Shown here: one piece after another, positions 29,035-60,198 of the stretch | How the letters are laid out: each line of letters begins with the position of its first letter | Numbering within the stretch: the first letter of the stretch is position 1 | Source: Candidatus Zixiibacteriota bacterium | GTDB lineage: Bacteria; Zixibacteria; MSB-5A5; GN15; FEB-12 | Reading direction: 5' to 3' | Assembly (NCBI GenBank): GCA_017999435.1 | Contig: JAGNLV010000003.1 | Location: 248,001-312,000 of the forward strand | Length of the DNA stretch: 64,000 nucleotides | Made by a program: the position numbers and the translations under genes | The notes under the pieces: model-generated | What the model was told of the DNA's origin: nothing | Databases searched by the model: none | What the model saw: the letters and a program-made list of their open reading frames with translations, nothing else

Positions 29035-32000
29035 CTATTTCAACAGCAGCATCTTCTTTGTCTCAACAAAGCCCTCGGCCGTCAGACGGTAGAAATACAT
29101 GCCCGAGGACACCCGCGAGGCATCCCAGGTCACCGTGTGTATTCCCGCGCCGAAGCTTGCATCGGCGAGCACCGCCACGCGCTGCCCGACCACGTTGAAC
29201 ACTTCGAGAGTCGCGTGTTGCGGGGTCGGCAGCGAGAAGCTGATCTCGGTCGCCGGGTTGAGCGGGTTCGGGTAGTTCTGGGCGAGGTCGAAGCCCGCCG
29301 GGGCGGTCCGGGCCAGCGGGCCAAGGTCCTCGCCGTACACCCAGCCGCTCTCGCAGGCCCGGGTCACGGCGTTGGCGGCGGCCTGGTAGGCGAGGCTCGC
29401 GTGCGCGACGTTGGTCACGGTGAAACACCACTCGCCGCTCGGCTTCTTGACACCGCTCGACCGCAGCGTCACCGTGCCGTCGCCCGCCGTCACGCCGCTC
29501 GTGCTGCCGGAGGTGGCGCCGTCGTACGCGGCGGAGACGGTCGCGCCGCCCACGGGCGATCCGTTCTGGTCGACGATCGTGACGACGCACCCCCCGAAGT
29601 AGTTCGCGCCGACCTTCGCGCGCGTCACGGCCATGCCGCCGACGTGCATCGCGGCATTCGGGTCCGTGACTGTAATGTAGTCGGTCTTGGTCTCAGCGTC
29701 CGACCCGTAGGCGTTCGACACCGTGAGCGTGACCGTGTACGTGCCCACGGCGCTGTACGCGTGGCTCGGGTTCTGCGCGGCCGAGGCGTCGCCGTCGCCG
29801 AAAGTCCAGCTCCACGCGGTCGGGCCGCCCGTCGACAGGTCGGAGAACTGCACCGTCAGCGGCGCGGCCCCCGAGGCGGGAATGCCCGCGAACTGCGCAT
29901 TCGGCGCGGTCGGACCGGCGGTGTACTCGATGTACATCTGGTCGATGGCGACCTGATCCAGCGACGTCTTTCCCCAGTTGCGGTCGGTATCGACGGCGCG
30001 GATGTACACGGTGCCGGTGATTCCGGCGGGCAGGGCCGCGGAATACGCCTGCTCGGCCGCACTGGCCACCGTCACCAGCGTCGTGTACGCCGCGTTGTCC
30101 GTCGAGTAGGCGAAAGCGATGTTGTCGTTGTCGCTGTTGGCCGGGCGAGACGCCTCCACGACGAACATCATGGCGGCGCCGCCGCTGCCGACGTCGATCG
30201 TCCACTTGTGCTCGAGGTAGCTGTAGGTCTTGACCGGGTGCCCGGTGTACAGCACCTCCGTGATTGTCTGGCTGACATTGTCGCTCGCCGCCAGGCGGGC
30301 GAATGTGCCGGTCACCGTCCCCGCCGCCGGCAGATCAGCCGATGGATACGCCCGCGTCGCCTGCGGCAGCTCGCTCACCGAGATGTATCCAAGCTTGGTT
30401 TCCGTGTCCGAGCCGTACGCGTTGGTCGCGGTCAGGGACACCGTGTAGGTTCCGGCGGCCGTATACGTGTGGCTCGGGTTCTGCGCGGTCGAGGCGCCGC
30501 CGTCGCCGAAATCCCAGCTCCAGGCGGTCGGCGCGTTGGCCGACAGGTCGGTGAACTGGACAGTGAGCGGGGCCGTGCCTGAGGTCGGGCTGCCCGTGAA
30601 CTCGGCCGCGGGCGGCAGCTGCGGCGGCTCGGTGACGGTGATGTAGCCCACTTTCGTCTCGGTATCCGATCCGCACGCCCCGCTCGCAGTCAGCGCCACC
30701 GTGTAGGTCCCGGCGGCCGCGTACGAGTGGCTTGGGTTCTGCGCGGTCGACGTGCCGCCGTCACCGAAGTCCCAACTGAAGGCCGTCGCATTCGTCGACT
30801 GACTGGTGAAAGTCACCGTGAGCGGCGCCTGGCCCGAGGTCGGGCTGCCGACGAATGCCGCCGAGGGCAGCGAATTGACGGTGATGTACGCCGCTTTAGC
30901 CGCCTGGGCGTTGCAGCCCTGGTTGCTGCTGGTGATGGTCAGCGTGACCGTGTAGGTCCCCGCCGCGTAGTAGGTGTGGCCGGGGTTCGAGGCGGTCGAC
31001 GTGCCGCCATCGCCGAACGTCCACGCCCAACCGTCAATCCCCGTGCCGGTCGACAGATCGGTGAAATTTACGGTGAGCGGGAGGCATCCGGAGACGGGCG
31101 TGCCGCTGAAATCGGCGGCCAGGTCGCAGCCGCCGCCGGCCGCATCGAGACACTTGCGGGCGTCGATGATCCCCGCTCCGAGGTCGCGCGATCCGCCGTA
31201 GGGGTTGGTGTTGGCAGGATCGGTGATGAGGGCGATCTTTTGCGCGGCGCTCAGCCCCGGATTGAACGACTCCAGCAGCGCGACCACGCCTGCCGCGTGC
31301 GGGCAGGCCATCGAGGTGCCGTCCATGGTCGCAATGTAGTCAACGCCGGGATCGGCCGGATCGGTAATCGTGCTGAGCACGCTCACCCCCGGCGCGGCGA
31401 TGTCCACCCACGAGCCGTAGTTGGTGAAACTGGCGTTGTTGCCGCTCTGATCGGTGGCCGCCACATCAAGGCAGTCGCCGCGGCCGCCGAGGTAGCTCGG
31501 CGTGCTCGAACTGGAGTTGCCGGCCGCCACGCAGATGACGACGTCCTGGGCGATGAGGAAATCGGCCGCCGCGCCCAGCCCGCCGCTGTTGGAGCTGCCG
31601 AAGGAGCAGTTGATGGCGGCGACATTCCAGCCGGCCAGCTTCAGGTTGGCCATGTAGTACATGGCCTCGGCGACATAATCCATGATCACGACGCCGGTCG
31701 GTCCGTAGATCCAGTAGTCGAGCACGTAACCGATCCGGCACGGCACCACTTTCACCCCGGTGCCGCCGCCGGCGAAGGTGCCTTCACCGTAGCCGCCGGC
31801 GACCCCCGCCACGGCGTAGCCGTTGTTGGTAATCGCCGCGATCGTCCCGGCCGTGTGCGTCCCGTGGCCGTTGCCGTCGGAGGGATCGTTGTCGGCGCCG
31901 CCGCAGTCGATATCGATGCAGGGGTAGGAATACCAGTCGGTGCGGTCGACGAAATCCCAGCCGATGAGATCATCGGTGTAGCCGTTGCCGTCGTCGTCGA

Positions 32001-32697
32001 TTCCGTTGCCGGGCACCTCGTAGGCGTTGACCCAGATGTTCCCGTTGGTGCTCGCGTCATTCGGTCCCGGCGGGTTGCTCCCCCCGAGATCGCCGTGATT
32101 GTACATGGTGCCGATATCGAGATCCCCGACGATCACGGCCGGGTCGCCCGTCTCGCTGTCCCAGGCGGTGTGGGCACGGATCCCGTAAGAGTCCCAATAA
32201 TGCCACTGGTCATAGGGGTATTCCGGCGGCGGGTTGTCGTAGTAAGGGTCGTTCGGGAGGGCGAAGAGGGTGTGGATGCCGATCGGTTCGACGTGGTCGA
32301 CATCCGGCAGGGCGCCGTAGGCGGCCATGGCCTCGTCGAGCGATCCGGTCCCGATCGTGACTTTGTAGTGCCGCGCGAGCCGGCCGGCGTCCCCCGCGGC
32401 CCGCGTCTGCCGGTCGGCGCCGGGGAATTGCGGCCGCAAGGCTTTCACCTGGAACCGCCCCTGCAGGTCCGCAAAACCGGGCAGGGCGGCGAGCGCCGTC
32501 GGCGCCCGCAGATCCTTGGCGTGGTCGACCGCCACCCCTTCTTTCAGGACCACGATGAATCGATCGGGCACATGACCCAGAAAACTCGGGAGCCCCTGCG
32601 TCACACTGGGGTTCTCCACGTGTCGCGGGGTTTCGGCAGAGATTCCTCCCGCGGCGGCCAGGGCGAGAAGCAGCCCGGCCGTTGCCAGCGTTCTCAT
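29035..32697 (-). CDS. Secreted subtilisin-family (S8) serine peptidase with PKD domains and sorting tail
   Basis: Signal peptide (1-21), inhibitor-like propeptide (about 45-145), and an S8 catalytic domain (about 165-500) with Asp194 (in GDLDIG), His278 (GNGHGTHTAG), oxyanion Asn394 (AAGN) and Ser462 (GTSMACPHAAG). The Asp motif reads D-I-G instead of the usual D-T/S-G. Calcium-binding-like loops such as NGIDDDGNGYTDD precede the His. Then three PKD domains (SWDFGDGGTSTAQNPSH-type), an interposed beta-sandwich region, a fourth PKD, an Ig-like module, and a type IX-like tail (NYPNPLNPATEISFSLP ... SGMYFYRLTAEG ... KKMLLLK). Length is 1220 residues; AGGAGG precedes the ATG by 5 nt. Confidence 0.92.
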   Translation of the reverse strand: MRTLATAGLLLALAAAGGISAETPRHVENPSVTQGLPSFLGHVPDRFIVVLKEGVAVDHAKDLRAPTALAALPGFADLQGRFQVKALRPQFPGADRQTRAAGDAGRLARHYKVTIGTGSLDEAMAAYGALPDVDHVEPIGIHTLFALPNDPYYDNPPPEYPYDQWHYWDSYGIRAHTAWDSETGDPAVIVGDLDIGTMYNHGDLGGSNPPGPNDASTNGNIWVNAYEVPGNGIDDDGNGYTDDLIGWDFVDRTDWYSYPCIDIDCGGADNDPSDGNGHGTHTAGTIAAITNNGYAVAGVAGGYGEGTFAGGGTGVKVVPCRIGYVLDYWIYGPTGVVIMDYVAEAMYYMANLKLAGWNVAAINCSFGSSNSGGLGAAADFLIAQDVVICVAAGNSSSSTPSYLGGRGDCLDVAATDQSGNNASFTNYGSWVDIAAPGVSVLSTITDPADPGVDYIATMDGTSMACPHAAGVVALLESFNPGLSAAQKIALITDPANTNPYGGSRDLGAGIIDARKCLDAAGGGCDLAADFSGTPVSGCLPLTVNFTDLSTGTGIDGWAWTFGDGGTSTASNPGHTYYAAGTYTVTLTITSSNQGCNAQAAKAAYITVNSLPSAAFVGSPTSGQAPLTVTFTSQSTNATAFSWDFGDGGTSTAQNPSHSYAAAGTYTVALTASGACGSDTETKVGYITVTEPPQLPPAAEFTGSPTSGTAPLTVQFTDLSANAPTAWSWDFGDGGASTAQNPSHTYTAAGTYTVSLTATNAYGSDTETKLGYISVSELPQATRAYPSADLPAAGTVTGTFARLAASDNVSQTITEVLYTGHPVKTYSYLEHKWTIDVGSGGAAMMFVVEASRPANSDNDNIAFAYSTDNAAYTTLVTVASAAEQAYSAALPAGITGTVYIRAVDTDRNWGKTSLDQVAIDQMYIEYTAGPTAPNAQFAGIPASGAAPLTVQFSDLSTGGPTAWSWTFGDGDASAAQNPSHAYSAVGTYTVTLTVSNAYGSDAETKTDYITVTDPNAAMHVGGMAVTRAKVGANYFGGCVVTIVDQNGSPVGGATVSAAYDGATSGSTSGVTAGDGTVTLRSSGVKKPSGEWCFTVTNVAHASLAYQAAANAVTRACESGWVYGEDLGPLARTAPAGFDLAQNYPNPLNPATEISFSLPTPQHATLEVFNVVGQRVAVLADASFGAGIHTVTWDASRVSSGMYFYRLTAEGFVETKKMLLLK

Positions 32698-34467: not shown

Positions 34468-36669
34468 TCACTCCCAGGTCAGGCTCACGGCCAGGTTCCG
34501 CCCCGGTTCGTTGACGCCCGAACCGTGGATCCGGTACGCCGCATCGAACACGTTGTCCAGAGCCGCGCTCACCGTCACCGCGCGCCCCACCTTCACGCCC
34601 GCCCGCACCTGCACCACCGCGTACCCGGGCGTCCCTCCCGGCGGAATGCGCTGCGTGTCCTGGCGGTCGGCTGCGGACAGGTTGTCCTGGCGGCCCGCCA
34701 CGGTCAGTTCCCCCCCGGCCCACATGCGCCGATCGGCCGAGCGCCAGACCGCCTCGCACGTGAATTCCGGCGGCATCAGCCGGTCGAGCGGCTCCCGCGC
34801 TTCCTCTCCCGAGGAGGTCGGGTAGCTGTCCGCCCGTCCGTCGATCCAGGCGCCGCCCGCGGCCACCGTAAGCCCCGCACCGAGGTACACCGCCGCGCGC
34901 GCCTCCAGTCCGGTCACATAGCCGGTCGCGGCATTGCGTTTGGTCACCACGTAGTTGTCCTCGAGCATCTCGCCGGTGGGGACGCGGATGATGAGGTCGC
35001 GGATGGCCGTGTAGAAAACCGCGACCTCCCCCGACCACCGCCCCCGGCGCGTTTTCACGCCGGCTTCATAGCAGAGAAAGGTTTCGGGCTCAAGGTCGGG
35101 GGCGGGGATTTCGAGTTCATTGGTGCGGGCGATATCGAAGCGGGTGAGGTCCGAGAGGTTCGGCGCCCGGTAGGCGTGCGACACCCCTCCATAAATCCGC
35201 CACTCTTCGGCCGGCCGCCACATGATGCGGCCGGTTGCGGCCGCGTGCCGCCAGTCGCGTTCCAGCGAGTACACTCGGTCGGCCTGAAGCGGGTCCTGGA
35301 TGCGCCCGGCGTCGACCCCCACGTACGAGAATCGCCCCCCGGCCAGCAGGCTGAACCGCCCGAGGGTCCATTCGGCCTGGGCGAAGAAATCCCAGGTGTC
35401 GTAGGTGGAGCGGTCGGCCACCGGCCCCTGGGCCGACTCCTGCACGAGCGCCCCCGCCGCATCGTAGTCCGAGGCCCACGAGGAAACCCTGTCCCGGTAG
35501 AGGTCGATCCCGACCGTGGCGCGGGCCTGCAGGAGCGCCAGCTCCGTCTCGACCGACAAGCCGACCGTACGCACCGTGCACCCCTGCCGCCGCGCGGTGC
35601 GGTCCTTCTTCACCCGGTCCTGTTCCTCGTTCTGGCGGTGCCACGACAGGGTGCCCGAGAGCCGCTGGACCCGGCCCGACAGGTCGAACACCGTGTACCG
35701 CGCATATCCCAGGTCGCGCTCCTGGTCCAGCACGCACCGGCGGTCGCTGCCGACGGTCGTGCCTTCCCAGCTGATCCCGTAGATCGTCTTGTGCGCCCGC
35801 CAGACATCCTCCTGCGTTGTCCGCTGGTATGCGCCCGCCAGCTGGCTGTTTCGGCGCGGCGAATATTCGGCGCGCACGTCCACATTCCACTCATCGTAGC
35901 CGGTTTTCGGCTGCGCGCCGACCCCGCCTCCGGCGCGGAGGTCGCCGAAGAGTTTCCCCGTGAGGCCGACCGCAAGGCCGAGGTGTTCGGCCGGCGCCGC
36001 GGCGAGACTGATCCGGCCCGTGTGCGAATCCTCGGCGCTCGCGTAGCGGTACTGCCAGCCGGGACGCGCCGTGCGGTTCGCCAGGAGCGCCGAGGGATGC
36101 GGCGGGATCACATTCACGACCCCCCCGACCGCATCGGTGCCGTAGAGCACCGATCCCGGGCCCATGACCACCTCGACCGCCTCGACCGAATGGAGGTCAA
36201 CCGTGCTCCAGTACTGGTTGGGACCGGAACGAAAGACCGAGTTGTTCAACCGGATGCCGTCGACGAGCAGGAGCGTGTGAAACCCGGTAAGCCCCCGCAA
36301 GTACGGAGAGGCCTGGCCGTACGCCGTTTTCTGCACCATGGCGCCGGGAACCTCGGCCAGCGCATCCGGAAGCGTCCGCGCCAGCCGCTCGCTCCGCGCC
36401 GAGGCTCCGCTGAGCGAGGAGGCGGCGGCCGGAAGATCGAGCTTGCGGTGGGCGCTGCGGGTGGCCGTCACGAGAACTGTCCCCAGTTCGACTTCCGGCC
36501 CGGCGGCGGCCGAATCCCCGGCCGGCCGGCTCGCGGCGACGGTGTCCGATGAGGCGATTGTGGTGCTCTCGGCGCCGCGCACCGTTCCGGCGGCGGCCAG
36601 CACGGCCGCTGCCGCAATGATCGTGCCGATACTCACTGCTCTGTTCACCTTGCCTCTGCCCTTCATCAC
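34468..36669 (-). CDS. TonB-dependent outer-membrane receptor
   Basis: Signal peptide (about 1-32), then a plug domain starting ELGTVLVTATRSAHRKLDLP, with LPDALAEVPGAMVQ, YLRGLTGFHTLLLVDGIRLNNSVFRSG and VEVVMGPGSVLYGTDAVGGVVNVI, the classic plug order. A beta-barrel of alternating aromatic-rich strands follows, with a terminal strand ending NLAVSLTWE. Length is 733 residues. The substrate is unknown; vitamin B12 and siderophore receptors share this shape. It starts 15 nt after the end of the second receptor gene, so the two are co-transcribed. Confidence 0.9.
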   Translation of the reverse strand: MMKGRGKVNRAVSIGTIIAAAAVLAAAGTVRGAESTTIASSDTVAASRPAGDSAAAGPEVELGTVLVTATRSAHRKLDLPAAASSLSGASARSERLARTLPDALAEVPGAMVQKTAYGQASPYLRGLTGFHTLLLVDGIRLNNSVFRSGPNQYWSTVDLHSVEAVEVVMGPGSVLYGTDAVGGVVNVIPPHPSALLANRTARPGWQYRYASAEDSHTGRISLAAAPAEHLGLAVGLTGKLFGDLRAGGGVGAQPKTGYDEWNVDVRAEYSPRRNSQLAGAYQRTTQEDVWRAHKTIYGISWEGTTVGSDRRCVLDQERDLGYARYTVFDLSGRVQRLSGTLSWHRQNEEQDRVKKDRTARRQGCTVRTVGLSVETELALLQARATVGIDLYRDRVSSWASDYDAAGALVQESAQGPVADRSTYDTWDFFAQAEWTLGRFSLLAGGRFSYVGVDAGRIQDPLQADRVYSLERDWRHAAATGRIMWRPAEEWRIYGGVSHAYRAPNLSDLTRFDIARTNELEIPAPDLEPETFLCYEAGVKTRRGRWSGEVAVFYTAIRDLIIRVPTGEMLEDNYVVTKRNAATGYVTGLEARAAVYLGAGLTVAAGGAWIDGRADSYPTSSGEEAREPLDRLMPPEFTCEAVWRSADRRMWAGGELTVAGRQDNLSAADRQDTQRIPPGGTPGYAVVQVRAGVKVGRAVTVSAALDNVFDAAYRIHGSGVNEPGRNLAVSLTWE

Positions 36670-36684: not shown

Positions 36685-38784
36685 TTAGAGTTCAACCCGC
36701 AGCGAGACAGTTGCCTGCCGGGGCGCCGCCGGATAGTACCGGTACGGCTGCTGTCCGACCTGGGCGAGCAACGGATCGAAGTACCCGTCGTATTCGTATC
36801 GCTCGTCAAAAAGGTTATCGATTCGCACATCCAGCCGGAACGCCCGCCAGCCATACCCGCACATCACCGCGACCTCCGCATGGTCGGAGAGCCGCCGGGT
36901 GTTGGCGGCATCCAGCCACTGGTCAATCCGCCCGGATATCAGAACGCCCGCCGCCAGACCCGGCGCCACGGCATAGACTGCTTCCGCCCGATACGACCAC
37001 TCCGGCACTCCGGCCAGCCGGTGGTCGGCGTGCTCGCCGGACCGGATCACGGCGCGGGTGTAGATGCCCGAAAACTCAACCGTCAGGTCCGGCCGCACCG
37101 GCCCGCCGCCGGCGATTTCCACACCTGTGTGATGCGACCGTCCGACATTGATATAACACATGGCCCCTTGGTCGAAATCGATCTCCTCCCGCAGCCGATA
37201 GTGGTAGATGCTCACCGTACCGTAGCCGCCGCGGCGGTTGCGGAATTTCGTCCCGATCTCCCACGCGGTCCCGGTCATCGGCTCAAGGTTGCTGTTCGAT
37301 AGCAGGATGAAGGAGTTAGTGGGCGGGCCGGCGTTGAATGGAGCGGATCCATACAAGTGATTCAGGGTCGGGGACTTAAAGGCCCCCGAGACCATTCCGT
37401 AACACTGCACGCCCCGTCCGGCCGCGACACTGACTGCGACGCTCGGCGACAACCGGAACCATGATTGAGATTGGGTCGTGGAGAGGGCAGTCAGGTTGGT
37501 GGCCTCATACTCAAACTCGGTAGCGGCGTGGTCGGCGCGAAGCCCGCCGGTTACTGCCAGCCGCGGCATAAGTTCGAGCCGGGTCCGGGCGAAAGCGGCC
37601 ACCGCCGCGCGCCAGCCGGAGCCCCCCACGATCACGTTTTTCGATTGCCGTTCCCGGTACTCCGAGTCCAACCGCCCGCAATCCAGTGACACCCCAAGGC
37701 TTGTGCGCCAGGGTCGGCCGGCCGCCGTCGCCTGCATTTCCACGGCCCCCTCTCCGCCTGCCGATATGACCCTGGGGCGGTAATCCATCGCCTGCGTCGT
37801 CGTCACGATCTTGTCGGCGTCGGTCACCCGGAGCCAGGAGCTGCCATGCCACTGGCCACGCCGCCCAAGCGTTCCCGTCCCCGAGAAACCGGCGGTAAAG
37901 CAGCGGCTCTCGGCGTCATCCTCAAGAGGGTTGCCGTACGCATCGCGCGCCGCTCCCGCCCGATCGGTCGCCAGTTGCGCCTCCGTCACCGCCCCCGGCT
38001 GCTGCTCTTCGGTATGCGAAAACGAGAGCATGCCGCACAGGCGCGCAGCGCGGGCCGCCGTCGACATCACCCGCACCAGGCCTGTTTCCTGCACAAACCG
38101 GCTGTGGGCCCGCCATCCGTGGCTCCGACGAACGCCGCCTGAGGCCAGCACATCGCACGGACCGGCCGGCCTCTGGATAGTGACAACCGCACCGAGCGCA
38201 TCATCGGCCGATCCGGTCAACGCCAGGCCGATCCGGTGGTGTCCCCGCTCCGCGGTCGAGAATCCGAGCAACCCCCCCATCGCGAAGTCGCCGTACTGGG
38301 CCGAGACCGGGCCGCGCGTTGCCTCGACCCGCCCGATCGCCTCCAAGCCAAGGTCGGTCAGCGGCGCGAGACCGGTCGAGATGTCGTTCAGCGGGATGCC
38401 GTCGAGGCTGACCAGCAGGTACTGGGCCAGCCCCCCGCCGTAGAAGCCGCGCACATCGACCACCGCCTGTCCCCACGGGTTGCCGGAGGGATATGCGCGG
38501 AGACCGGGGAGTGAGGCGGCCAGGTCGGCCGGGGTGCGGTAGCGAAGCGCGCGGTCCGGCCCGAGCGCCCGGACCGTCACCGCCGCCGGGACCTCCCAGA
38601 CGGCGAGCGGGATCCGGTCGGCCTCGACCACGATGTCCGACAGCGAGACCACGGCTGTATCCGGCTGGCCCTGAGCCGGCACCGCGGCGGTGTCGCGAGC
38701 GGCCTGGGGAGCGCCCACAGCCCCAGGTCCGATCAAAGCCGCTCCCGCTGTCACGATGCAGAGTGTGGCCGCACGAAAGTACAT
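36685..38784 (-). CDS. TonB-dependent outer-membrane receptor
   Basis: Signal peptide (about 1-22), plug domain (LSDIVVEADRIPLAVWEVPAAVTV, LPGLRAYPSGNPWGQAVVDVRGF, LVSLDGIPLNDIST, VEATRGPVSAQYGDFAMGG) and a 22-strand-type barrel ending RQATVSLRVEL. Length is 699 residues. It is the first gene of the receptor pair; the minus-strand promoter at 38876-38903 lies ~90 nt upstream. The barrel sequences of the two receptors differ clearly, so they are not a recent duplication. ATG at 38784 is chosen because the signal peptide begins there. Confidence 0.9.
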   Translation of the reverse strand: MYFRAATLCIVTAGAALIGPGAVGAPQAARDTAAVPAQGQPDTAVVSLSDIVVEADRIPLAVWEVPAAVTVRALGPDRALRYRTPADLAASLPGLRAYPSGNPWGQAVVDVRGFYGGGLAQYLLVSLDGIPLNDISTGLAPLTDLGLEAIGRVEATRGPVSAQYGDFAMGGLLGFSTAERGHHRIGLALTGSADDALGAVVTIQRPAGPCDVLASGGVRRSHGWRAHSRFVQETGLVRVMSTAARAARLCGMLSFSHTEEQQPGAVTEAQLATDRAGAARDAYGNPLEDDAESRCFTAGFSGTGTLGRRGQWHGSSWLRVTDADKIVTTTQAMDYRPRVISAGGEGAVEMQATAAGRPWRTSLGVSLDCGRLDSEYRERQSKNVIVGGSGWRAAVAAFARTRLELMPRLAVTGGLRADHAATEFEYEATNLTALSTTQSQSWFRLSPSVAVSVAAGRGVQCYGMVSGAFKSPTLNHLYGSAPFNAGPPTNSFILLSNSNLEPMTGTAWEIGTKFRNRRGGYGTVSIYHYRLREEIDFDQGAMCYINVGRSHHTGVEIAGGGPVRPDLTVEFSGIYTRAVIRSGEHADHRLAGVPEWSYRAEAVYAVAPGLAAGVLISGRIDQWLDAANTRRLSDHAEVAVMCGYGWRAFRLDVRIDNLFDERYEYDGYFDPLLAQVGQQPYRYYPAAPRQATVSLRVEL

Positions 38785-38875
38785 ACAGGGTGTTTTCGGC
38801 ACTCCGAAGTCGTCGATGTGAGCCGGGCCTGGGGAAACCGCCTGCGTCTTGCCGGGCGCCCCGCCGCCTGCCCAC

Positions 38876-38903
38876 AAGATACCATCGTTTCGCGCGAAGT
38901 CAA
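38876..38903 (-). promoter_or_regulatory. Putative sigma-70 promoter of the receptor operon
   Basis: On the minus strand TTGACT (38903-38898), 16-nt spacer, TATCTT (38881-38876). The predicted start is ~85 nt before the first receptor ATG. Confidence 0.55.
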
Positions 38904-39049: not shown

Positions 39050-39751
39050 ATGACACACTCCCTGTTCCCCGCGCTCGTGAGCTTGCTGGCGGCTGTGGCT
39101 GCCGCGGGCGTGCGGTCGGAAACCGATGTACCCTCCCCCCCCGCGGACACCCTCGTCCGGTACGTGAGTGACCATGAGATTCGCGTCGGGAATGTCCTGA
39201 TGGACATCTCGGCGCTGACGGTTTCGGCGCCCGGCTGGGTGAACCAGAAAACCGGTCTCGTCGAGTACCTGGCGGTCACATCCGAAGGGAAGCGTCATGA
39301 GTCGGTGCTGGTTCTCGATGTCCAGCCGCTCCATCTCCAGACCGCTCTGCTCCTGTTCGGTCTCGATTTCGGCCAGAACCTCGCCTTCCAGGGGGACTCC
39401 GTCCCCCCGCGCGGGGACAGCGTCGACATTTCGGTCGCCTGGCTAGGCCCGGAGGGGGATTCGGTGGTGGTGCCAGCCTCCGAGCTGCTCTTTGACTATC
39501 ACGACTCGGTGGTGGCGCCTACCACTCCGTGGGTGTTCACCGGCTCCATGATTCACCTGGATCGGCTCCAGGCCGACCTTGAGGGATCGATCATCGCGAC
39601 CTATTCCGATCCCGTCGCCATCCTCAACAACCCGGCCTCGGCCCGGTCGGACGATACCTTCTACGGCGTGAACGAAGCGCTCGTCCCGCCCCCCGGCACA
39701 CCGGTGGTCCTGATTATCACAGTGCCGTTGCGCACGGGAGAAGACAAATGA
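39050..39751 (+). CDS. Exported YdjY-domain protein
   Basis: A 233-residue protein with a signal peptide (about 1-22) and a YdjY-type domain: VSAPGWVNQKTGLVEYLAVTSEGKRHESVLVLDVQP and LQTALLLFGLDFGQNLAFQ. The domain has no established biochemical role; it is found in exported proteins of Planctomycetes, Zixibacteria and E. coli YdjY. The last codons overlap the next gene as ATGA, so the two proteins are made together. The C-terminal part (TGSMIHLDRLQADLEGSIIATYSDPVAIL) is also typical of the family. Confidence 0.75.
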   Translation: MTHSLFPALVSLLAAVAAAGVRSETDVPSPPADTLVRYVSDHEIRVGNVLMDISALTVSAPGWVNQKTGLVEYLAVTSEGKRHESVLVLDVQPLHLQTALLLFGLDFGQNLAFQGDSVPPRGDSVDISVAWLGPEGDSVVVPASELLFDYHDSVVAPTTPWVFTGSMIHLDRLQADLEGSIIATYSDPVAILNNPASARSDDTFYGVNEALVPPPGTPVVLIITVPLRTGEDK

Positions 39752-40926
39752 AGACGTTCGCGGCCGTCGCGATCCTGGCGGCGTTTCCTCTCCTGATCGC
39801 CCCGCCCCTGCCTGCCCAGCCGGCGCACCCGTTCGACCTCTCGCTGCGGCATGAGGTCGAGCGAAGCGTTGCGGCCGGCCTGCAGTACCTGGCGGGCACG
39901 CAGAAAGACAACGGCTCGTGGAGCTACTACGTGGGGATCACCGGGCTGGCGACGACCGCTTTCCTCCAGGCGCCGTCGGCCGTGAAGGAGCAGTACTGGG
40001 CCAACATTGACCGCGGCCTGGCGTTTGTGCTCGCCAATGTCCGGCCCAACGGCGGCCTCTACCCCGATATCGAACCGCAACTGCACGCCTACAACACGGC
40101 CATCTGCCTCATGGCCCTCGTGGCCGCCGACAACCCGGCCTACAAAGACATCATCATCAATGCGCGCGATTACCTCCTCAGCCTTCAGGCCGACGAAGAC
40201 GAGGGGATCAGTCCGGACAGCTCGACCTACGGCGGTATCGGCTACAATCGCGACGAGCGCTCCGACCTGTCCAACATGCAGTTCGCCCTCGAGGCGCTGC
40301 GGGCATCCGAGGACTTCAAACCGACCGCCGAGTACGCCGGCAAGGTGGAATACCGGGGGGACGCGGTGCAGGAGACGGCTGAAGTCTCCAACAAGGAGCT
40401 TTTCTGGGAGAAGGCCATCCTGTTCCTCCAGCGTTCGCAGAACTACCGCAAGTACAACGACTACGAGTGGTCGAGCGACGACGGCGGCTTCATCTACTAC
40501 CCGGGATCGTCGAAAGCCGGCGGCACGACGTCGTACGGCGGCATGACCTATGCCGGCATGAAGAGTTTCATCCACGCCGGGCTGCGCCGGGAGGATGAGC
40601 GGGTGCAGAAAGCGTATGCCTGGATTCGCGCCAACTACACGGTCGAGGAAAATCCCGAGCTCGGCCGCCAGGGTCTCTTCTACTTCTACAGCGTGATGGC
40701 CAAGGCGCTCTCGCTCTTTGGCGACAGCCTGCTCGTCGACAGCGGCGGCGTCGCCCACGACTGGCGGGGCGATCTCGCCGACAAACTGATTTCGATACAG
40801 CAGTCCGACGGTTCCTGGGTCAACGAGAACGGGCGCTGGTGGGAAAACAACCCCGACCTGGTGACGGCGTACTGCGTGATGGCTCTGGAGAAACTGCTGC
40901 AACCGCTGGCGCCGAAGATGGAATAG
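39748..40926 (+). CDS. Secreted alpha/alpha-toroid protein (terpene cyclase/prenyltransferase-like repeats)
   Basis: Signal peptide (about 1-23), then five QW-like helical repeats, for example YLAGTQKDNGSWSYYVGITG, LISIQQSDGSWVNENGRWW and the intervening TSYGGMTYAGMKSF. These fit the alpha/alpha-toroid fold of squalene-hopene cyclases, prenyltransferase beta subunits and TED domains. No D-x-D-D or D-C-T-A-E catalytic motif is visible and the protein is exported, so cyclase activity is unlikely. Length is 392 residues. It is translationally coupled to the YdjY protein and followed by a much larger toroid/dockerin protein. Confidence 0.8.
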   Translation: MKTFAAVAILAAFPLLIAPPLPAQPAHPFDLSLRHEVERSVAAGLQYLAGTQKDNGSWSYYVGITGLATTAFLQAPSAVKEQYWANIDRGLAFVLANVRPNGGLYPDIEPQLHAYNTAICLMALVAADNPAYKDIIINARDYLLSLQADEDEGISPDSSTYGGIGYNRDERSDLSNMQFALEALRASEDFKPTAEYAGKVEYRGDAVQETAEVSNKELFWEKAILFLQRSQNYRKYNDYEWSSDDGGFIYYPGSSKAGGTTSYGGMTYAGMKSFIHAGLRREDERVQKAYAWIRANYTVEENPELGRQGLFYFYSVMAKALSLFGDSLLVDSGGVAHDWRGDLADKLISIQQSDGSWVNENGRWWENNPDLVTAYCVMALEKLLQPLAPKME

Positions 40927-41273
40927 AATGACAACGCGGTGGCGCCGGCACCGCCGCAAGAGACCGGCAGTCGCCGGTCCCGGCGGGCGCGGCGAAGGGA
41001 GGTGACTGATCGGGGGAGCGAGGTAATCGGAGTGCGCATCCGCGCGGCCCGGGCCGGGAACGCAACCGCCGGCTGGACAGGCGACCGCCTGCGGCCGCCC
41101 GACGCCTCGCCACGGATGCGCCGCAGGATCCTCAGGCATGAGAACGCCGGCGCTCTCTTCGGCCGGCTCCGGCTGTCGCCCCTGCGGCTGCGACCGACGG
41201 CCGGCTCAAGAAGTCCGGCTCGTGAATACGGATGAATTTGGACAGATGCTCGTTTCGAGCAAGGTGGATTCAC
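40927..41273 (+). other. Intergenic region, nothing recognised
   Basis: GC-rich spacer between the toroid gene and the dockerin-bearing gene. It contains a chance open frame but no promoter-like pair or hairpin I would defend. A GGTGG (41262-41266) precedes the next ATG. Confidence 0.4.
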
Positions 41274-44200
41274 ATGAACGATGTAGCGGTCTTTTCGATG
41301 CGGCTGGCGCGTCTCCTCGCGGCGCTCGCCGTCGTCGCGATTCTCACCGGCGGCGCCGCGGCAGCCTCCGGCAGCGCGAACCCGACGGGGCAGCCGAAAC
41401 CGGCGGGCAGTCAGGACGTGCTCCCGCCCGCGTTCAGCGAAGGTTTCACTCTTCCCGCCCCCGAGGCGGTGGCCTTGGAGCCCGAGATTGTTCCGTCGCT
41501 GGGCGACCCCAAGGTGGCTCCCAGCGTCAATGTCATGCCCGGCAAATTCGTGGGCCGCGGCGAACCGTACACCTGGGTCGGGCGCATCCTGACCATCTGG
41601 GGCAACGTCAAGAACGGCGCGCCCCCCCTGACCTTCGAGTGGCAGTTTGGCGACGGCAGCGCCCCGGTCACAGGATCGGTGAGCAACGCCAAATATATCG
41701 CCACGACCCACACCTATGCGTCCTCCGGCATTAAGCGCGCCGTCCTGACCGTCACCGATGCCGACGGATTCTCCGACCGGGATACCGTCATCATCGACGT
41801 CATCGGCACGCCGACGCTCAAGGACAGCATCAACGCCTCGGTGGAGGACGGACTGCGGTACCTCTACAATTCGCAGAACACCGGGGGTCTCTGGATCGGG
41901 TACTCGAGTTACTATGTCAGCGCGACCGCGCAGGCGGTTCTCTGTTTTGAAAATCAGGGCTACCTTCCGAGCGACGATCCGAACGAGAACATCTACGTCG
42001 AGTGCATCCAGCAGGGGCTCGATTACCTCACCGCCAACCTGCGACCGGTCGCGATCGGCCTGCAGACGTACTGCGATCCGGAAGCCGTTGCTCCCGGCAA
42101 CACCGACGCCAACGGTCTCGGCATCTACCCCGTCTCGGGATCCCCGTATGAGGCCGGGCCGATCATGATGGCGCTAGCCGGTTCGGGCGACGCGATGAAG
42201 ACGCATCCCGCCGGCACCGGCGTCGCCAACGTCATCGGCCGCTCCTACTACGAGATCCTCGTCGACATGGTCGACTGGTGCGCCTGGGCCCAGAACGAGT
42301 CCGGCCGCGGCGGCTGGCGCTATTCGGCCAACTACAGCTCCTCGGACAACTCCGTCTCCCAGTGGCCGACGATCGGCCTGGAGGCGGCCGAGAAGCAGTG
42401 GGGCATTTCGCCGCCGCCCTGCGTGAAATCGGAACTGCGGCTCTGGATCAACGCCAGCCAGCTCGCCAACGGACGCTTCACCTACTACCCGAGCACGTAC
42501 GCCACCAGCTACGTGCCGATGACCGGAGCCGGCCTGTGTGAAATGTCCTTTGTCGGCATTCCCACCGACAGCGGCCGGGTCAAGCGGGCCATGCAGCAGC
42601 TCTTCCTCGGCTGGTCCGACTACTACGGCAAGGGGTTCCCGTACGCCATGTACGGCATCAAGAAGGGCTGCGACATCGCCCGCCCCGAACCGATCGAGGA
42701 TCTCGACACCACCGCCGGCTACTTCGACTGGTATTCCGACTACGCCCGCTACCTGCTGGCTCCCGGCCGCCAGAATGCGACCACCGGCCAATTCCTCATC
42801 CATCACGGCTACCTGGGCGACGCCCGCATCCATGACCACACTTGGTGCATCCTTGTGCTCGAGCCGGTCACCTGCGTCCCCGACGCCATCATCAACTCCG
42901 CCGATACGGTCGGCGTCTCCCAGCCGTTTGTGCTCGACGGATCCGCCTCCAACCACCCCTGCGGAGAGATCCTCCAGTGGCGGTGGGATTTCGATGTCAG
43001 CGACGGCATCGATTTCGATAATCCCGACGCCATCGGCCAGGTCGTCACCCATCCGGGAGTCCCTCTCCCGCCGGGGGATCCGCTGGGCGACGTGACCGTG
43101 GCTCTCCGCGTCTACGACGACAACGACCCGGTGCAGACCGGCGACGACCAGAAGACGATCGTCATTTCGCGCGGGTGCAAGGCGCCGGTCGCGGTGCTCG
43201 GCGGACCCTACGCCGGCCACCCCGGCGACGTCATCACCTTCGACGCCTGCGCGTCGTACGATCCCGATGCCGAGGATCCGGATTCCGAGTGCCCCGACTC
43301 GATCGTCTCGTTCGCATGGGACTTCAACGGCGACGGCATCTACAACGACTACGCCGACTCCGCTTCCTGCACCCCCGCCCACTCGTGGCCGGCGCCGACC
43401 GAGGATTACATCTGCGTCGAGGTGAGAGATTCTTACGGCAAGGCCGACTCCCTGTGTGTGCCCGTCAAAATCTCGCCCATCGATCTGGATCTGCAACCCG
43501 AGAACATCTCCTTCAACCCGGCGACGGGAACGGAGGGGGATCTCATCACCATCCGAGCGGACATCTTCTTCAACTCCGAGTTCGACACGACCATCCATAA
43601 TGTGCTGATCCGTTTCTACGATGGGGACCCGAACGTTCTCGTCCAGCAGATCGGCCCCGATCAAATCCTGGCGAGCATCGATTCCGGTCAGACCGTCGTG
43701 CTCGAGGTCAACTGGACGGTTCCCGACCTGCTCCCCCACGACATCTACATCGTCGTCGACCCGTTGGGCACCATCCCGGAATGGGACGAGAGCAACAACC
43801 GGGCGTACCGGACCTGGGTCCCGGGCCAGTGCGAGGAGGACCGCCTGGTGGTCATCCCCTGGGTGCAGTACGAGTTCTACGCCCGCCACATCGGGCCGCT
43901 GACGCTCGATTCCCTGTGCCTGTGGGCGGACGATTCCTGCACCTGGCTCCAGACGCCGATCACGGTTAATCCGCTCCAGTCTTATGCCTGGATCGGCAAT
44001 TTCGCAGACCCTTACGGGCCGGACGATGTCGACACGGCGACGCTCATGATCAACGATGCGGTCCCGCTCCACGGGTTCGCCGCCGACCTGGTCGGCTCCC
44101 CCGAGTCGTTCCCGTTCCTTGACCAGATTTTCCCCGGCCAGTTGGTGCTGCGCATGCGCTACAGTATTCCCGCCCTCGTGCAGTACTACATCGACTCGCT

Positions 44201-44504
44201 GGCCGCTCTCCCTGAACCGGAACTCATGTGGGACGAAGCGGTCTATCCGCTGGCTGTGAAGGGGCAGTACCTCGACGGCACCGCGTTCAACCTGTGCACC
44301 GACCTGATCATCATCGGCCACCGCTCGGGCGACGTCAACGGCGATGACAGCCGGACGGTCACCGATATCACGTTCCTGATCGGCTACCTGTTCCGGGGCG
44401 GCCCGGCGCCGGATCCGGTGTATCTCGGCGACGTCAACCACGACGGTCAGACCACTGTGGCTGATATCACACGCCTTGTCGGGATCATCTTCCGGGGCGA
44501 GTAG
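41274..44504 (+). CDS. Exported PKD / alpha-toroid / CARDB-like protein with C-terminal dockerin repeats
   Basis: A 1076-residue exported protein. Order seen: signal peptide (about 1-32), a PKD domain (FEWQFGDGS ... ATTHTYASSGIKRAVLTVTDADG), a toroid domain (from DSINASVEDGLRYLYNSQN to about 525, with paired helices and SYVPMTGAGLCEMSF), a second Ig/PKD block (RWDFDVSDGID), a third with FAWDFNGDGIYNDYADS, and a CARDB-like module (DLQPENISFNPATGTEGD, PEWDESNNRAYRTW). A two-repeat dockerin follows: GDVNGDDSRTVTDITFLIGY and GDVNHDGQTTVADITRLVGI. Two calcium-loop repeats next to the YdjY-toroid pair suggest cell-surface assembly; the partner cohesin is not in the window. Confidence 0.82.
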   Translation: MNDVAVFSMRLARLLAALAVVAILTGGAAAASGSANPTGQPKPAGSQDVLPPAFSEGFTLPAPEAVALEPEIVPSLGDPKVAPSVNVMPGKFVGRGEPYTWVGRILTIWGNVKNGAPPLTFEWQFGDGSAPVTGSVSNAKYIATTHTYASSGIKRAVLTVTDADGFSDRDTVIIDVIGTPTLKDSINASVEDGLRYLYNSQNTGGLWIGYSSYYVSATAQAVLCFENQGYLPSDDPNENIYVECIQQGLDYLTANLRPVAIGLQTYCDPEAVAPGNTDANGLGIYPVSGSPYEAGPIMMALAGSGDAMKTHPAGTGVANVIGRSYYEILVDMVDWCAWAQNESGRGGWRYSANYSSSDNSVSQWPTIGLEAAEKQWGISPPPCVKSELRLWINASQLANGRFTYYPSTYATSYVPMTGAGLCEMSFVGIPTDSGRVKRAMQQLFLGWSDYYGKGFPYAMYGIKKGCDIARPEPIEDLDTTAGYFDWYSDYARYLLAPGRQNATTGQFLIHHGYLGDARIHDHTWCILVLEPVTCVPDAIINSADTVGVSQPFVLDGSASNHPCGEILQWRWDFDVSDGIDFDNPDAIGQVVTHPGVPLPPGDPLGDVTVALRVYDDNDPVQTGDDQKTIVISRGCKAPVAVLGGPYAGHPGDVITFDACASYDPDAEDPDSECPDSIVSFAWDFNGDGIYNDYADSASCTPAHSWPAPTEDYICVEVRDSYGKADSLCVPVKISPIDLDLQPENISFNPATGTEGDLITIRADIFFNSEFDTTIHNVLIRFYDGDPNVLVQQIGPDQILASIDSGQTVVLEVNWTVPDLLPHDIYIVVDPLGTIPEWDESNNRAYRTWVPGQCEEDRLVVIPWVQYEFYARHIGPLTLDSLCLWADDSCTWLQTPITVNPLQSYAWIGNFADPYGPDDVDTATLMINDAVPLHGFAADLVGSPESFPFLDQIFPGQLVLRMRYSIPALVQYYIDSLAALPEPELMWDEAVYPLAVKGQYLDGTAFNLCTDLIIIGHRSGDVNGDDSRTVTDITFLIGYLFRGGPAPDPVYLGDVNHDGQTTVADITRLVGIIFRGE

Positions 44505-45001: not shown

Positions 45002-45940
45002 TCATCGCCGCTGGTTCTTCCTTTCGAGCTTGAAATGAACCTTGTACGTGTAGAAGTCAATGTTCGGAGCGACGGCCAGTGCCCGACGGAGCTTTATGTC
45101 GTCTTCGAAGGCGATGATAACCCCGCGTACGTTCTGGTTTGATTCCGCCAGCTCCTCCTTCACGTATCCCATGTACCGCTGCACCTGCCCGACCACCACG
45201 TCGCTCGCCCTGCCCTTCTTGAGTTCAATGACGACAATTTCCTTTCCATCCTTGCTGACCGCCAGAATGTCAATCGGTCCGGTGTCGGTCTGGTACTGCT
45301 GCCCTGCCAACTCCCCGTCCTCCTCGAATACGTCGTAGTGCTTACCGAGCTCCGTATGATGCCAGTTCTGTACAAGGAAGTCTTCCAGGTGTTTCTCCAA
45401 CGCGAAAGCGCTCGGATCTTCAACGGTCGCGTCAGTACTGACAATGGTCAGTGGTTGGCCCCCGGCGATGAGCCGCTCGATCTCGGCGGCATGCCGGGAG
45501 ACGTTGATGACCGGAGGGCCCGACGAAAGCGATTTTCGGAGCGGCTCACTCATCTCGTCACGGGTCAAGGGCCGGTCGAACCAGCGCACCACGCGGCGGT
45601 GCGGCAGTTCTTCTCCCTTCTTGTACTCATATCCGCCCGTCACCTCACCGACGAAGTAATTCCCCTTGCCGTCGGGGCAGAGTACGACATCCCCTACCTG
45701 AACGCCCTTGGCCACGGTCCACAGCATGCCGCAAGCCAGGCCGGCCGATACCTTGGGCTTGCCAGGGTTTTGCTTCATCCAGACAGGGATGAACTCTCTG
45801 TTGAAATCCCGCCAGTTGTCGGGCAAATGATGTGTCAGGTCTCGGTCGGTGATGAATCCGGCCGCGATGCAGTTGCTCCTGTACGCCTCTTCAGCAAAAC
45901 AGTTCTTACTGCCAAGCAGAATGCGGAAATAGCTTTTCAT
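45002..45940 (-). CDS. Restriction-endonuclease-like protein: PUA/EVE-like N-terminus, NucS-type PD-(D/E)XK C-terminus
   Basis: 312 residues. The N-terminal ~160 residues have an aromatic-rich barrel-like pattern (WTVAKGVQVGDVVLCPDG, YFVGEVTGGYEY) as in EVE/PUA base-reading domains. The C-terminal nuclease core is clear: helix LEKHLEDFLVQNW, then Asp224 in GPIDILAVSKDGKEIVVIELKKG with Glu239-x-Lys241, then QVQRYMGYVKEEL, the NucS/Mrr-like arrangement. It probably cuts DNA with modified bases or mismatches; the target is inference. The gene is solitary and at the edge of a lower-GC block, as defence genes often are. Confidence 0.75.
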   Translation of the reverse strand: MKSYFRILLGSKNCFAEEAYRSNCIAAGFITDRDLTHHLPDNWRDFNREFIPVWMKQNPGKPKVSAGLACGMLWTVAKGVQVGDVVLCPDGKGNYFVGEVTGGYEYKKGEELPHRRVVRWFDRPLTRDEMSEPLRKSLSSGPPVINVSRHAAEIERLIAGGQPLTIVSTDATVEDPSAFALEKHLEDFLVQNWHHTELGKHYDVFEEDGELAGQQYQTDTGPIDILAVSKDGKEIVVIELKKGRASDVVVGQVQRYMGYVKEELAESNQNVRGVIIAFEDDIKLRRALAVAPNIDFYTYKVHFKLERKNQRR

Positions 45941-46964: not shown

Positions 46965-49040
46965 CTATTGGTCAACCTTCATGAGCTGCTCGACCTTGTG
47001 CTGGAGTTCGTCAAGGCGCTGACGAATTGCGGAGTTGTCCGCGTTCAACGACGAGTTCTCCTTTGCCAACTGCTTGACCGCTTCCACCAAGACGGCGGTG
47101 AGCCGACCATAGTCGACGGCGCGGTAATTCTGGTCGCCCCAGGTCGTAACCAACTCCGGAAGTACTTTCTCAACCTCCTGTGCGATGACGCCGATTTCCC
47201 GATGACCGGAGGACCGTCCGAGGGAGTCGTATCGCTCATTCCAATCGAAAGAAACGCCGTTTATCTGCTCGATCTTCTCAAGGGCGTCGACAATTGGCGC
47301 CACATTCGCCTTGAGACGGTCGTCCGACGAAGTGGGGAAGCTGGTCGCGTGGCATGAGCCCGCAACATCGAGCTTGTAGCCGGGTGTGGAGGTACCGACA
47401 CCGACGTTGAGATTGGGTAAGAGAGCGATATCACCGACGTCGGTGGCCAGATAGCCGTCGGTGCCATTGTGGTACATCTCTATCCGACTGCCCCAGCCCG
47501 ACGGATTTCTCCCGTAGACCGCAAGGTGCGCGTCATACGATCTGTTACCCGTGAATCCGGAGTAGAAGCCGAAGTACTGATCCTCAGTGTCGTCTCCTTC
47601 CAACGTCCCAAGCTGATTATTGCTGAAAAAGATGCCGCAGCGGCCGGGATCATTGTGACTGTCGGTGTGAAGTGTCAATCCTCCGATGTGTTCTGAGAAG
47701 CGGGTGATCTTGACGTTACCAGTGAAGAATCCGGCCGAATCACCGAAGCCGCAGACCGCCTTGCCGTAATAAGCCAGTGCGCCGGAGCAGTCTGCCCAAT
47801 GACCTGAGCCGGTATCAGTCTGGGCAAGAACTCCAGTACGGTTCGACGCGATAGTGACTATTGCGCCTCCGGAATCATTTAGCGCCAATAACCCCTCGTC
47901 GTACTTTCCTATCGCTTCAGCAAGAATCGCGCGTGTATCCTCGCCAAGCGTCGCGTAGTTGCCGCTACTGCTATGCTCTCCCATAATCCCATAGGTGGAG
48001 CCTTTCCCATAGACTCCGCGCCGCCCGAGCCCGTACACTCCTAGACCGAACGCACTTGAAGCGTATACCCCTGTGCTGTCTGTACTGGAAGCGCGAATGC
48101 CGACCCCGGAAGTACACTCGCCGAATATACCAACTTCGTTTGCCTGCTGGGCTGAACCTGCAACGCCAAAATACTCACCTCCCAGCGTTCCACTGCAACC
48201 GGAACTGGTGTCCTTTCCGAACACGCCGTCATTCAGGCCTCCCAGATAACCGTAGTTGTGCGAGGTCGGATGTTCACCGAACACTCCCTTGCTCCCCGTC
48301 CCGTAGATACCATACTTAGACGCACTGGAGCCTTGCACGCCATAGCCCGAACCGCAATAACCAAAGACTCCAGCTGAACTGCCGCTCACTGCACTGCCGG
48401 AAATCCCGTGCCCCGATCCACTGGTTGCACTGTAGAGTGCAGGAGTTGGGTTGGCGGCGTTGTCGAGGTTGAAGTATGCGGTGCCGCCCGTTGCATCGGT
48501 CATGGTGACATCGAGTTTGTTGTTCGCTCCATTCGTACCTATCGAGACCTTGTCGGTGAGCGTCGTCAGCCGGACCGTAGGTCCGCCGTCGGTCCACCCG
48601 CCGCCACCGCCGGCGACTCCGAAGGCCATGGCTGCCGTATCGGCGAATAGCGCCTTAAAGGCGAAGGGGACGGTGTTCAGTTTCACGCGGGGGATGATTT
48701 CCGGGTCCGCGCCTACTTTGATGCCAAGGTACCGCGTGGTGTCGCCGGTGAAGAGTGTGCTCGGCAGGGCCGTGGAATCCCCGAGAGTATAGGCAAACAA
48801 CCCCCCGATTACGGTGACGTGTCGGTAGCCGTTGTCCCAGAGAACCACCCCCTCGGTTGGAGCGTTGTAGATGACGAAGCGAATCAGATAACTGCCGTCG
48901 GGAACATTGGCGCCGGCCGATGTGGTTAGCCGTCCCTGGTAAGTGAACGTGGTTGGAACGGCGGCGAGCGCCAGCGCTGCGGCGCACGCCACAATGAGCA
49001 TGGCCGAAATGAGTTTGGATATGAGATGAAGTCGCTTCAT
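46965..49040 (-). CDS. Exported S74 (intramolecular chaperone) tail-fibre-like protein
   Basis: Signal peptide (about 1-26), then an N-terminal domain typical of bacterial tail-fibre-domain proteins (TFTYQGRLTTSAGANVPDGSY). Many glycine-rich repeats of about 15-20 residues follow (GVFGYCGSGYGVQGSS, GVFGEHPTSHNYGYLGG), probably a beta-helix. The C-terminal S74 chaperone has SSDDRLKANVAPIVDALEKIEQING, GVIAQEVEKVLPELV, and the ending RAVDYGRLTAVLVEAVKQLAKEN with a coiled coil. S74 domains trimerise and then cut themselves off. Length is 691 residues; AGGAGA precedes ATG 49040. Non-phage versions of this kind occur in FCB bacteria. Confidence 0.85.
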   Translation of the reverse strand: MKRLHLISKLISAMLIVACAAALALAAVPTTFTYQGRLTTSAGANVPDGSYLIRFVIYNAPTEGVVLWDNGYRHVTVIGGLFAYTLGDSTALPSTLFTGDTTRYLGIKVGADPEIIPRVKLNTVPFAFKALFADTAAMAFGVAGGGGGWTDGGPTVRLTTLTDKVSIGTNGANNKLDVTMTDATGGTAYFNLDNAANPTPALYSATSGSGHGISGSAVSGSSAGVFGYCGSGYGVQGSSASKYGIYGTGSKGVFGEHPTSHNYGYLGGLNDGVFGKDTSSGCSGTLGGEYFGVAGSAQQANEVGIFGECTSGVGIRASSTDSTGVYASSAFGLGVYGLGRRGVYGKGSTYGIMGEHSSSGNYATLGEDTRAILAEAIGKYDEGLLALNDSGGAIVTIASNRTGVLAQTDTGSGHWADCSGALAYYGKAVCGFGDSAGFFTGNVKITRFSEHIGGLTLHTDSHNDPGRCGIFFSNNQLGTLEGDDTEDQYFGFYSGFTGNRSYDAHLAVYGRNPSGWGSRIEMYHNGTDGYLATDVGDIALLPNLNVGVGTSTPGYKLDVAGSCHATSFPTSSDDRLKANVAPIVDALEKIEQINGVSFDWNERYDSLGRSSGHREIGVIAQEVEKVLPELVTTWGDQNYRAVDYGRLTAVLVEAVKQLAKENSSLNADNSAIRQRLDELQHKVEQLMKVDQ

Positions 49041-49140
49041 GGCGGATTCTCCTTGGCTGTTGATGATCATATCTTCCCTGCGAGTAATGGAACGTTCCGA
49101 CAGGAACCGAACTGTTCGCTGTCGATGATTCGATATGAAT

Positions 49141-59463: not shown

Positions 59464-60198
59464 TCACACTACCACGTGCTCCAACCGCATCTTCCGTTTC
59501 TCCCAATCCGGCATCAACCGGGACAGCAGCCGCCAGAAGCCGCGGCTGTGGTTTTTGTATCGCAGGTGGCACAGCTCGTGCATGATGACGTAGTCAATGC
59601 AGTGCACCGGGGCCTTGGCCAACTCAAGGTTCAACGTAATTCGGTTGTTCTTGGTGCAACTGCCCCACCGACGCTTCATCGGCCGATACCGGATCGGCGG
59701 GCGGGGCAGGTTGGCCCGATTTGCAGTCAACACGCACTGGTCCAACCTCCGTTCCAGCGCCACCTTCGCATGCTGCGTGAACCAGCCGATTACCATCCGC
59801 CTCACTCTCTCCCGACTTGCTTTCTGTCCGGTCCGTACCTCTATGTACCCCCCGACCAGCTTGACCTCGTCTTCATGGCCCTCGATCACTCTCAACCGGT
59901 ACTGCCGACCCAAGTACAGATGGGTCTCCCCACTGACATACTGCCGCTCTGTCGGCAGTGGCTGAAACCGCTCGAAATCCACCAACTGTCGGACAATCCA
60001 CCGCGCCCGACGCAGCACCCGCTTCTTCACTTCCGCCGGCGCCTTGCCGATCGGGGCCTTCACCGACACCCTCAAGTTCGGATGCACACTGATCGCCAGA
60101 TCCTGGCGGTCACCATAGGTCAAATCGTACTCGATCCGCCGCAGCCCGTATTGGATCGCATGCCGCCCGCCAGAATACTTGATCTTACGCCTACTCAC
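59464..60198 (-). CDS. SprT/YgjP-family zinc metalloprotease
   Basis: 244 residues, DUF45/YgjP type. The zinc motif H-E-L-C-H (MHELCHLRYKNHSRGFW, third ligand downstream in the same helix-turn) and the upstream RWGSCTKNNRITLNLEL are typical. The family often sits beside type I restriction genes, as here: its GTG start overlaps the hsdR stop (GTGA). Role in the restriction system is not established; it may process or control the enzyme. Confidence 0.9.
   Translation of the reverse strand: MSRRKIKYSGGRHAIQYGLRRIEYDLTYGDRQDLAISVHPNLRVSVKAPIGKAPAEVKKRVLRRARWIVRQLVDFERFQPLPTERQYVSGETHLYLGRQYRLRVIEGHEDEVKLVGGYIEVRTGQKASRERVRRMVIGWFTQHAKVALERRLDQCVLTANRANLPRPPIRYRPMKRRWGSCTKNNRITLNLELAKAPVHCIDYVIMHELCHLRYKNHSRGFWRLLSRLMPDWEKRKMRLEHVVV

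Follow-up and report, generated by a model that had tools for sequence, protein, structure and literature searches.

The namesake of the YdjY family (NF040466) is a protein of E. coli whose gene lies between the DedA genes ydjX and ydjZ and not beside a toroid gene. The YdjY protein examined here is homologous to it by profile comparison (95% probability). The E. coli protein carries cysteines of the Fe-S type, in a C-x2-C-x3-C-P cluster that is absent from our protein (GSIIATYSDPVAI versus GCLVCLDSCPVGI in E. coli), and it is without E72, K81 and E84, which our protein has. Because the E. coli protein is distant and differs in both the cysteines and these three residues, its annotation is not transferable.

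The partner of our YdjY protein is a free alpha/alpha toroid, tor1, whose fold has been described in several settings. The toroids of squalene-hopene cyclase and of the single-domain class II cyclases (MstE, C. fuscus SHC) are homologous to tor1 and have similar QW-like repeats. Unlike these enzymes, tor1 is without the DxDD motif, is apparently exported and is paired with YdjY. The thioester toroids of complement C3d and alpha-2-macroglobulin belong to the same fold class, but tor1 is without their CGEQ motif. AprG, a toroid-fold transaldolase, is among the best PDB matches of tor1 at 11-14% identity, and it shows that the toroid fold is capable of non-terpene chemistry. In transcobalamin and intrinsic factor, an exported toroid and a small separate domain are arranged around the ligand (PMC1796856). 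The likeness between transcobalamin and a YdjY-toroid pair is one of analogy only. The window proteins have no match to Cobalamin_bind or DUF4430 (Pfam, E <= 1), and the YdjY model has no match in the PDB.

The families of the parts are known. Their conserved association appears to be undescribed, as does the putative site in YdjY that is treated below. In the open-licence literature, as far as its texts were accessible, no description of a YdjY-toroid pair was found. Where papers naming YdjY were read it was present only as a table entry, and the remaining ones have titles on other topics. A search of the open-licence literature also returned no mention of DUF6288, a domain that is fused to YdjY in one Planctomycetota protein.

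Gene layout of the locus

The window is the whole stretch of Zixibacterial (GN15) DNA that was analysed, 64,000 nucleotides long. The features of the locus are listed in Table 1. An original prediction, made from the sequence of the window, had proposed that ydjY and a toroid gene are coupled through an ATGA overlap. The overlap was confirmed, and on this evidence translational coupling of ydjY and tor1 is probable. The third gene, tor3, had been described as a PKD, toroid and CARDB-like protein with a dockerin, and all four parts were recovered. Pfam identified PKD_4 (70 bits), CARDB (22.8 bits, cut-off 22.7) and Dockerin_1 (cut-off 22.9, score in Table 1), and the toroid was identified by alignment. 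The toroid fold therefore occurs twice, as had been stated, once free in tor1 and once joined to a dockerin in tor3.

Tor3 is separated from tor1 by 347 bases and is not coupled. It probably starts at 41274 and not at the longest-ORF start, 41232. In the three genes the GC content is 0.81-0.87 at third codon positions versus 0.42-0.46 at second positions, which is the pattern expected of coding genes. Export signals were judged by eye from the sequence, and the proteins are called exported in that predictive sense. PADLOC produced no defence match for YdjY, tor1 or tor3.

Table 1. Positions of the YdjY-toroid locus, its notable residues and the adjoining receptor genes within the window
Feature	Position	Strand	Basis or remark
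YdjY protein, 233 aa	39050..39751	+	ATG at 39050, stop at 39751; N-terminal signal-like stretch, no lipobox cysteine
tor1, free alpha/alpha toroid, predicted to be exported, 392 aa	39748..40926	+	SQHop_cyclase_C, 36.9 bits
tor3, PKD - toroid - PKD - CARDB - dockerin protein, 1076 aa	41274..44504	+	Pfam matches; Zixibacteria and Planctomycetota have homologues near YdjY
ATGA stop/start overlap of YdjY and tor1	39748..39751	+	Sequence
Codons of YdjY E72, K81, H83, E84	39263..39301	+	Near-invariance in 81 YdjY sequences
Codon of YdjY S166	39545..39547	+	100% in 81 YdjY sequences
Codon of tor1 D173 (S-D-x-S-N motif)	40264..40266	+	Single acid near the place of the cyclase DxDD; equivalence by hand alignment
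Toroid domain of tor3, residues 177-547	41802..42914	+	Profile built on the tor3 proteins of five Zixibacterial loci
Dockerin type I domain of tor3, residues 1019-1068	44328..44477	+	PF00404, 28.0 bits
TonB-dependent receptor B, divergent from YdjY	36685..38877	-	TonB_dep_Rec_b-barrel and Plug
TonB-dependent receptor A	34468..36669	-	TIGR01785, 191 bits, below cut-off 316.85

Recurrence of the YdjY-toroid pair

YdjY was found in 6/61 relatives, and close homologues of tor1 were found in the same six. None of the 61 genomes had only YdjY or only the close toroid, and one further genome had a distant toroid alone. This co-occurrence gave p 1.8e-8 in a Fisher test that ignores kinship. The two genes are adjacent and in the same order in 5/6 of the YdjY-bearing relatives. 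In genome G056 the toroid and an intact YdjY are 7 kb apart, and what lies directly upstream of the toroid is a YdjY fragment that keeps the C-terminal motif.

For a wider search, the YdjY alignment served as the pattern with which the GTDB genome collection was scanned, and this identified the pair in Planctomycetota and Verrucomicrobiota as well. Whether the pairing recurs in other genomes was the point on which the original prediction had chosen to be judged. The pair recurs in three phyla, and the task that YdjY and the toroid were proposed to share gains support from this recurrence. Because the two genes stand side by side in three phyla so distant from one another, we conclude that their products very probably work together.

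Among 289 Verrucomicrobiota genomes, 30/32 toroids that matched the toroid alignment at E <= 1e-115 were within about 250 bases of YdjY, and the other two were second copies in genomes that already had a linked one (both counts were made by eye). The flanks of 14 unlinked, more distant Verrucomicrobiota toroids were read, and they contained neither a YdjY neighbour nor a conserved neighbour. In the 42 adjacent pairs examined YdjY comes first and on the same strand, an arrangement that the search required. An NTGA overlap was present in 14/42 pairs, including some from Planctomycetota, and a further Planctomycetota pair (L153) has an 11-base overlap.

The loci used for trees were the best-scoring of each phylum and not a random sample. 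In the YdjY tree the linked proteins of Zixibacteria and Verrucomicrobiota formed one clade (support 96/91), whose sole unlinked member was the G056 protein, and a separate second linked group was found in Planctomycetota. The linked/unlinked label changed three times on the tree versus 24.6 times by shuffling. Paired distances of YdjY and toroid were correlated with r 0.90, in a shuffle test that leaves shared ancestry in. This correlation may reflect co-evolution, with which it is consistent, but it is not proof, and shared descent alone may account for it.

YdjY was present in 222/294 sampled Planctomycetota genomes, 108/289 Verrucomicrobiota genomes and 9/133 genomes of the wider Zixibacteria phylum. 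The best-scoring Planctomycetota YdjY genes have no toroid neighbour, and in two loci (L137 and L146) a PQQ-like propeller is fused to YdjY. For these reasons YdjY does not need a toroid. A DUF6288-YdjY fusion was seen in one Planctomycetota protein, which occurs in two loci (L096 1-2112 and L156 1190-3352), and DUF6288 is weakly squalene-cyclase-like. As a sign of toroid partnership this fusion is only suggestive, because the toroid and the DUF6288 part matched weakly when their profiles were compared (9% probability). In a Verrucomicrobium (L036 9884-12120), a TIGR03790 protein takes the place of the toroid and has a 4-base overlap with YdjY.

The YdjY family is widespread in Planctomycetota and Verrucomicrobiota and has no known function. 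It now becomes a testable system, since its partner is conserved, the order of the two genes is coupled and the near-invariant residues are few.

Putative sites in YdjY and the toroids

The window YdjY matched NCBIfam NF040466 (ydjY_domain) with 125.8 bits against a cut-off of 50, the domain comprising residues 49-224, and no Pfam family was matched. The family is divergent, with a mean column identity of 27% in a 46-row alignment. In 81 YdjY sequences E72, K81, E84 and S166 were the only fully invariant residues (100%), followed by H83 at 99%. The original prediction had overlooked these five polar residues. Since so few polar residues stay invariant in so divergent a family, the set suggests an active or metal site.

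The AlphaFold model of YdjY has a pLDDT of 90.6, and values are about 97-98 over most of the domain. A fold search with this model produced nothing significant in the PDB (best E 0.51) and no match among viral models (BFVD), and a profile search for solved YdjY homologues gave chance matches only. The confident model therefore represents a domain without a known structural relative.

Tor1 exceeded the cut-off of Pfam SQHop_cyclase_C (26.1 bits). Its sequences QKDNGSW and QQSDGSW are two QW-like repeats of the cyclases that have been kept. The tor1 model is of middling confidence (pLDDT 67), and Foldseek matched it to complement toroids and to AprG as well as to class II cyclases. The toroid region of tor3 (about residues 177-547) matched tor1 over 78 aligned residues with 33% identity (E 5e-7), and it aligned with the full-length toroid domain of relatives.

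Sequence and fold homology to squalene-hopene cyclase would fit toroids that are exported terpene cyclases. We regard this explanation as extremely improbable. A motif scan of 56 toroid proteins identified no DxDD in tor1 or tor3, and the DEDD seen in toroids of Zixibacterial relatives belongs to a loop in which this motif shows no conservation. In a hand alignment the place of the cyclase DxDD is occupied in tor1 by E170-R171-S172-D173, which leaves tor1 without an acid at the catalytic position. D173 belongs to the motif S-D-x-S-N, and it is kept in all 39 linked tor1 sequences outside three loci of one type (L034, L035 and L039). The toroids of these three loci have lost the central motifs and are without an equivalent helix motif. 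A lipid-precursor substrate is also at odds with export. The claim that the toroids are without the cyclase acid motifs was thus borne out. It had been coupled to the view that binding or thioester-like roles are likelier than terpene chemistry, and of this view the doubt about terpene chemistry stands while the thioester part does not, as CGEQ was absent from every one of the 56 toroid proteins. These results suggest that the exported terpene-cyclase-like toroids of Zixibacteria, Verrucomicrobiota and Planctomycetota need not be cyclases despite their family name.

The toroid could be an enzyme of another kind, either a PL10-like polysaccharide lyase or a non-terpene enzyme like AprG, with YdjY as an accessory or second catalytic subunit. 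In 42 toroid sequences some 70 positions are at least 90% conserved, including the polar residues N302, K319, N359, R363, E366 and Y375, and such conservation would be in keeping with catalysis, as would the presence of AprG among the best Foldseek matches. The toroid profile also gave a borderline match to solved pectate lyase chains (E 0.015), and in a second toroid of Verrucomicrobiota Pec_lyase was matched below its threshold. Against this, the window toroids matched no lyase or glycosidase family in Pfam, and the middling tor1 model weakens the structural argument. We consider an enzymatic toroid possible but doubtful.

We tentatively prefer to read the pair as an exported complex of two parts. 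A ligand would be bound by the toroid and clamped or acted on by YdjY, and tor3 would be a surface-attached relative. YdjY and tor1 would be made from one message, exported, and act jointly outside the inner membrane. Tor1 would hold the ligand in its central cavity, and YdjY, by means of E72-K81-H83-E84 plus S166, would clamp it or act on it chemically. Tor3 would perform the same task in Zixibacteria and in some Planctomycetota, and its dockerin or type IX tail would be an interchangeable tag for sorting or attachment. We infer the single message, the physical contact, the binding of a ligand, any chemistry and any link to TonB-dependent uptake. It is also possible, with some doubt, that YdjY is a new exported enzyme or metal-site fold (Glu-Lys-His-Glu plus Ser) with the toroid as its dedicated partner. 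The pair would then be an undescribed extracytoplasmic enzyme system common to Zixibacteria, Verrucomicrobiota and Planctomycetota.

The second toroid and other neighbours

Homologues of tor3 with a matching toroid domain were found near the pair in four genomes (G036, G025, G019 and G056). In three Planctomycetota loci (L034, L035 and L039) a tor3 homologue lies directly upstream of YdjY, and its toroid domain matched with E 4e-67 to 5e-70. The second toroid had been predicted to belong to the system, and it is indeed a member of the neighbourhood in Zixibacteria and in these three loci. In two Verrucomicrobiota loci (L038 and L041) a different second toroid is located divergently upstream. 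In another locus (L029 11722-15795) a fusion of an astacin metallopeptidase, a toroid and a type IX tail is encoded directly downstream of the YdjY-toroid pair.

The original prediction had the toroids assembling on a cell-surface scaffold through the dockerin. Dockerin_1 is over its cut-off in tor3 and in the tor3 proteins of three relatives, as such a scaffold would need. The C-terminal tag varies, however. It is a dockerin only in the window and L012, a dockerin followed by a type IX tail in L009 and L011, and a type IX tail without a dockerin match in L010. The source genome encodes >50 dockerins, along with about 30 type IX tails that exceed the cut-off. A search of this genome (98% complete) for cohesins, which had been proposed as a check, identified none over cut-off. 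The three matches that it gave were weak, and the proteins concerned apparently have a dockerin or sorting tail of their own. Because dockerins are so many, no cohesin is over cut-off and the tag varies in relatives, we read the tor3 dockerin as a general tag and not as evidence of a scaffold, which on these sequence data is very unlikely.

The original prediction had overlooked two TonB-dependent receptor genes that lie next to YdjY in the window. The nearest family of receptor A is that of the heme/hemoglobin receptors, though its score remains below the cut-off (Table 1). Homologues of receptor A were found near the pair in L010/L027, L014 and L029, and homologues of receptor B in L010/L027, L012 and L029. 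Receptor A homologues with at least 44% identity were present in 2/5 other YdjY-bearing relatives versus 1/55 relatives without YdjY (p 0.016). The receptors beside some Zixibacterial copies are a weak hint of uptake. By analogy with transcobalamin, in which a toroid and a small beta domain sandwich B12 (PMC1796856), the module might work at the cell surface, capturing a compound in short supply (heme, corrinoid or siderophore-like) and handing it to the adjoining receptors. We think this unlikely. In L009 and L011 the 20 kb that were read contain no receptor homologue of this kind, and no TonB receptor homologue was found near the Verrucomicrobiota and Planctomycetota pairs. An Rfam search of the window returned no cobalamin riboswitch or other RNA match, and the lack of Cobalamin_bind and DUF4430 also argues against a transcobalamin-like role. 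Since the receptor link is partial and unseen in the other phyla, the two-part complex proposed above was not built upon uptake.

Other genes beside the Verrucomicrobiota and Planctomycetota pairs were considered as parts of the system and rejected. The SRP-type GTPase, DHQ synthase, hexapeptide acyltransferase and IF3, and likewise the sigma factor, M1 peptidase and PRA-CH, vary by clade and are background-like.

Four more genes on the minus strand of the window were recorded. One (45002-45940), next to the YdjY-toroid module, encodes the candidate anti-phage defence protein PDC-S02, which PADLOC matched with E 2.7e-147 and which has a nuclease domain of NucS_C-like type. Another, further on (60195-63491), encodes a type I restriction HsdR. 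Together they perhaps form a small defence region. The gene at 29035-32697 encodes a subtilase that carries four PKD domains plus a type IX sorting tail, and the product of the gene at 46965-49070 has peptidase S74 (chaperone of endosialidase) as its C-terminal domain.
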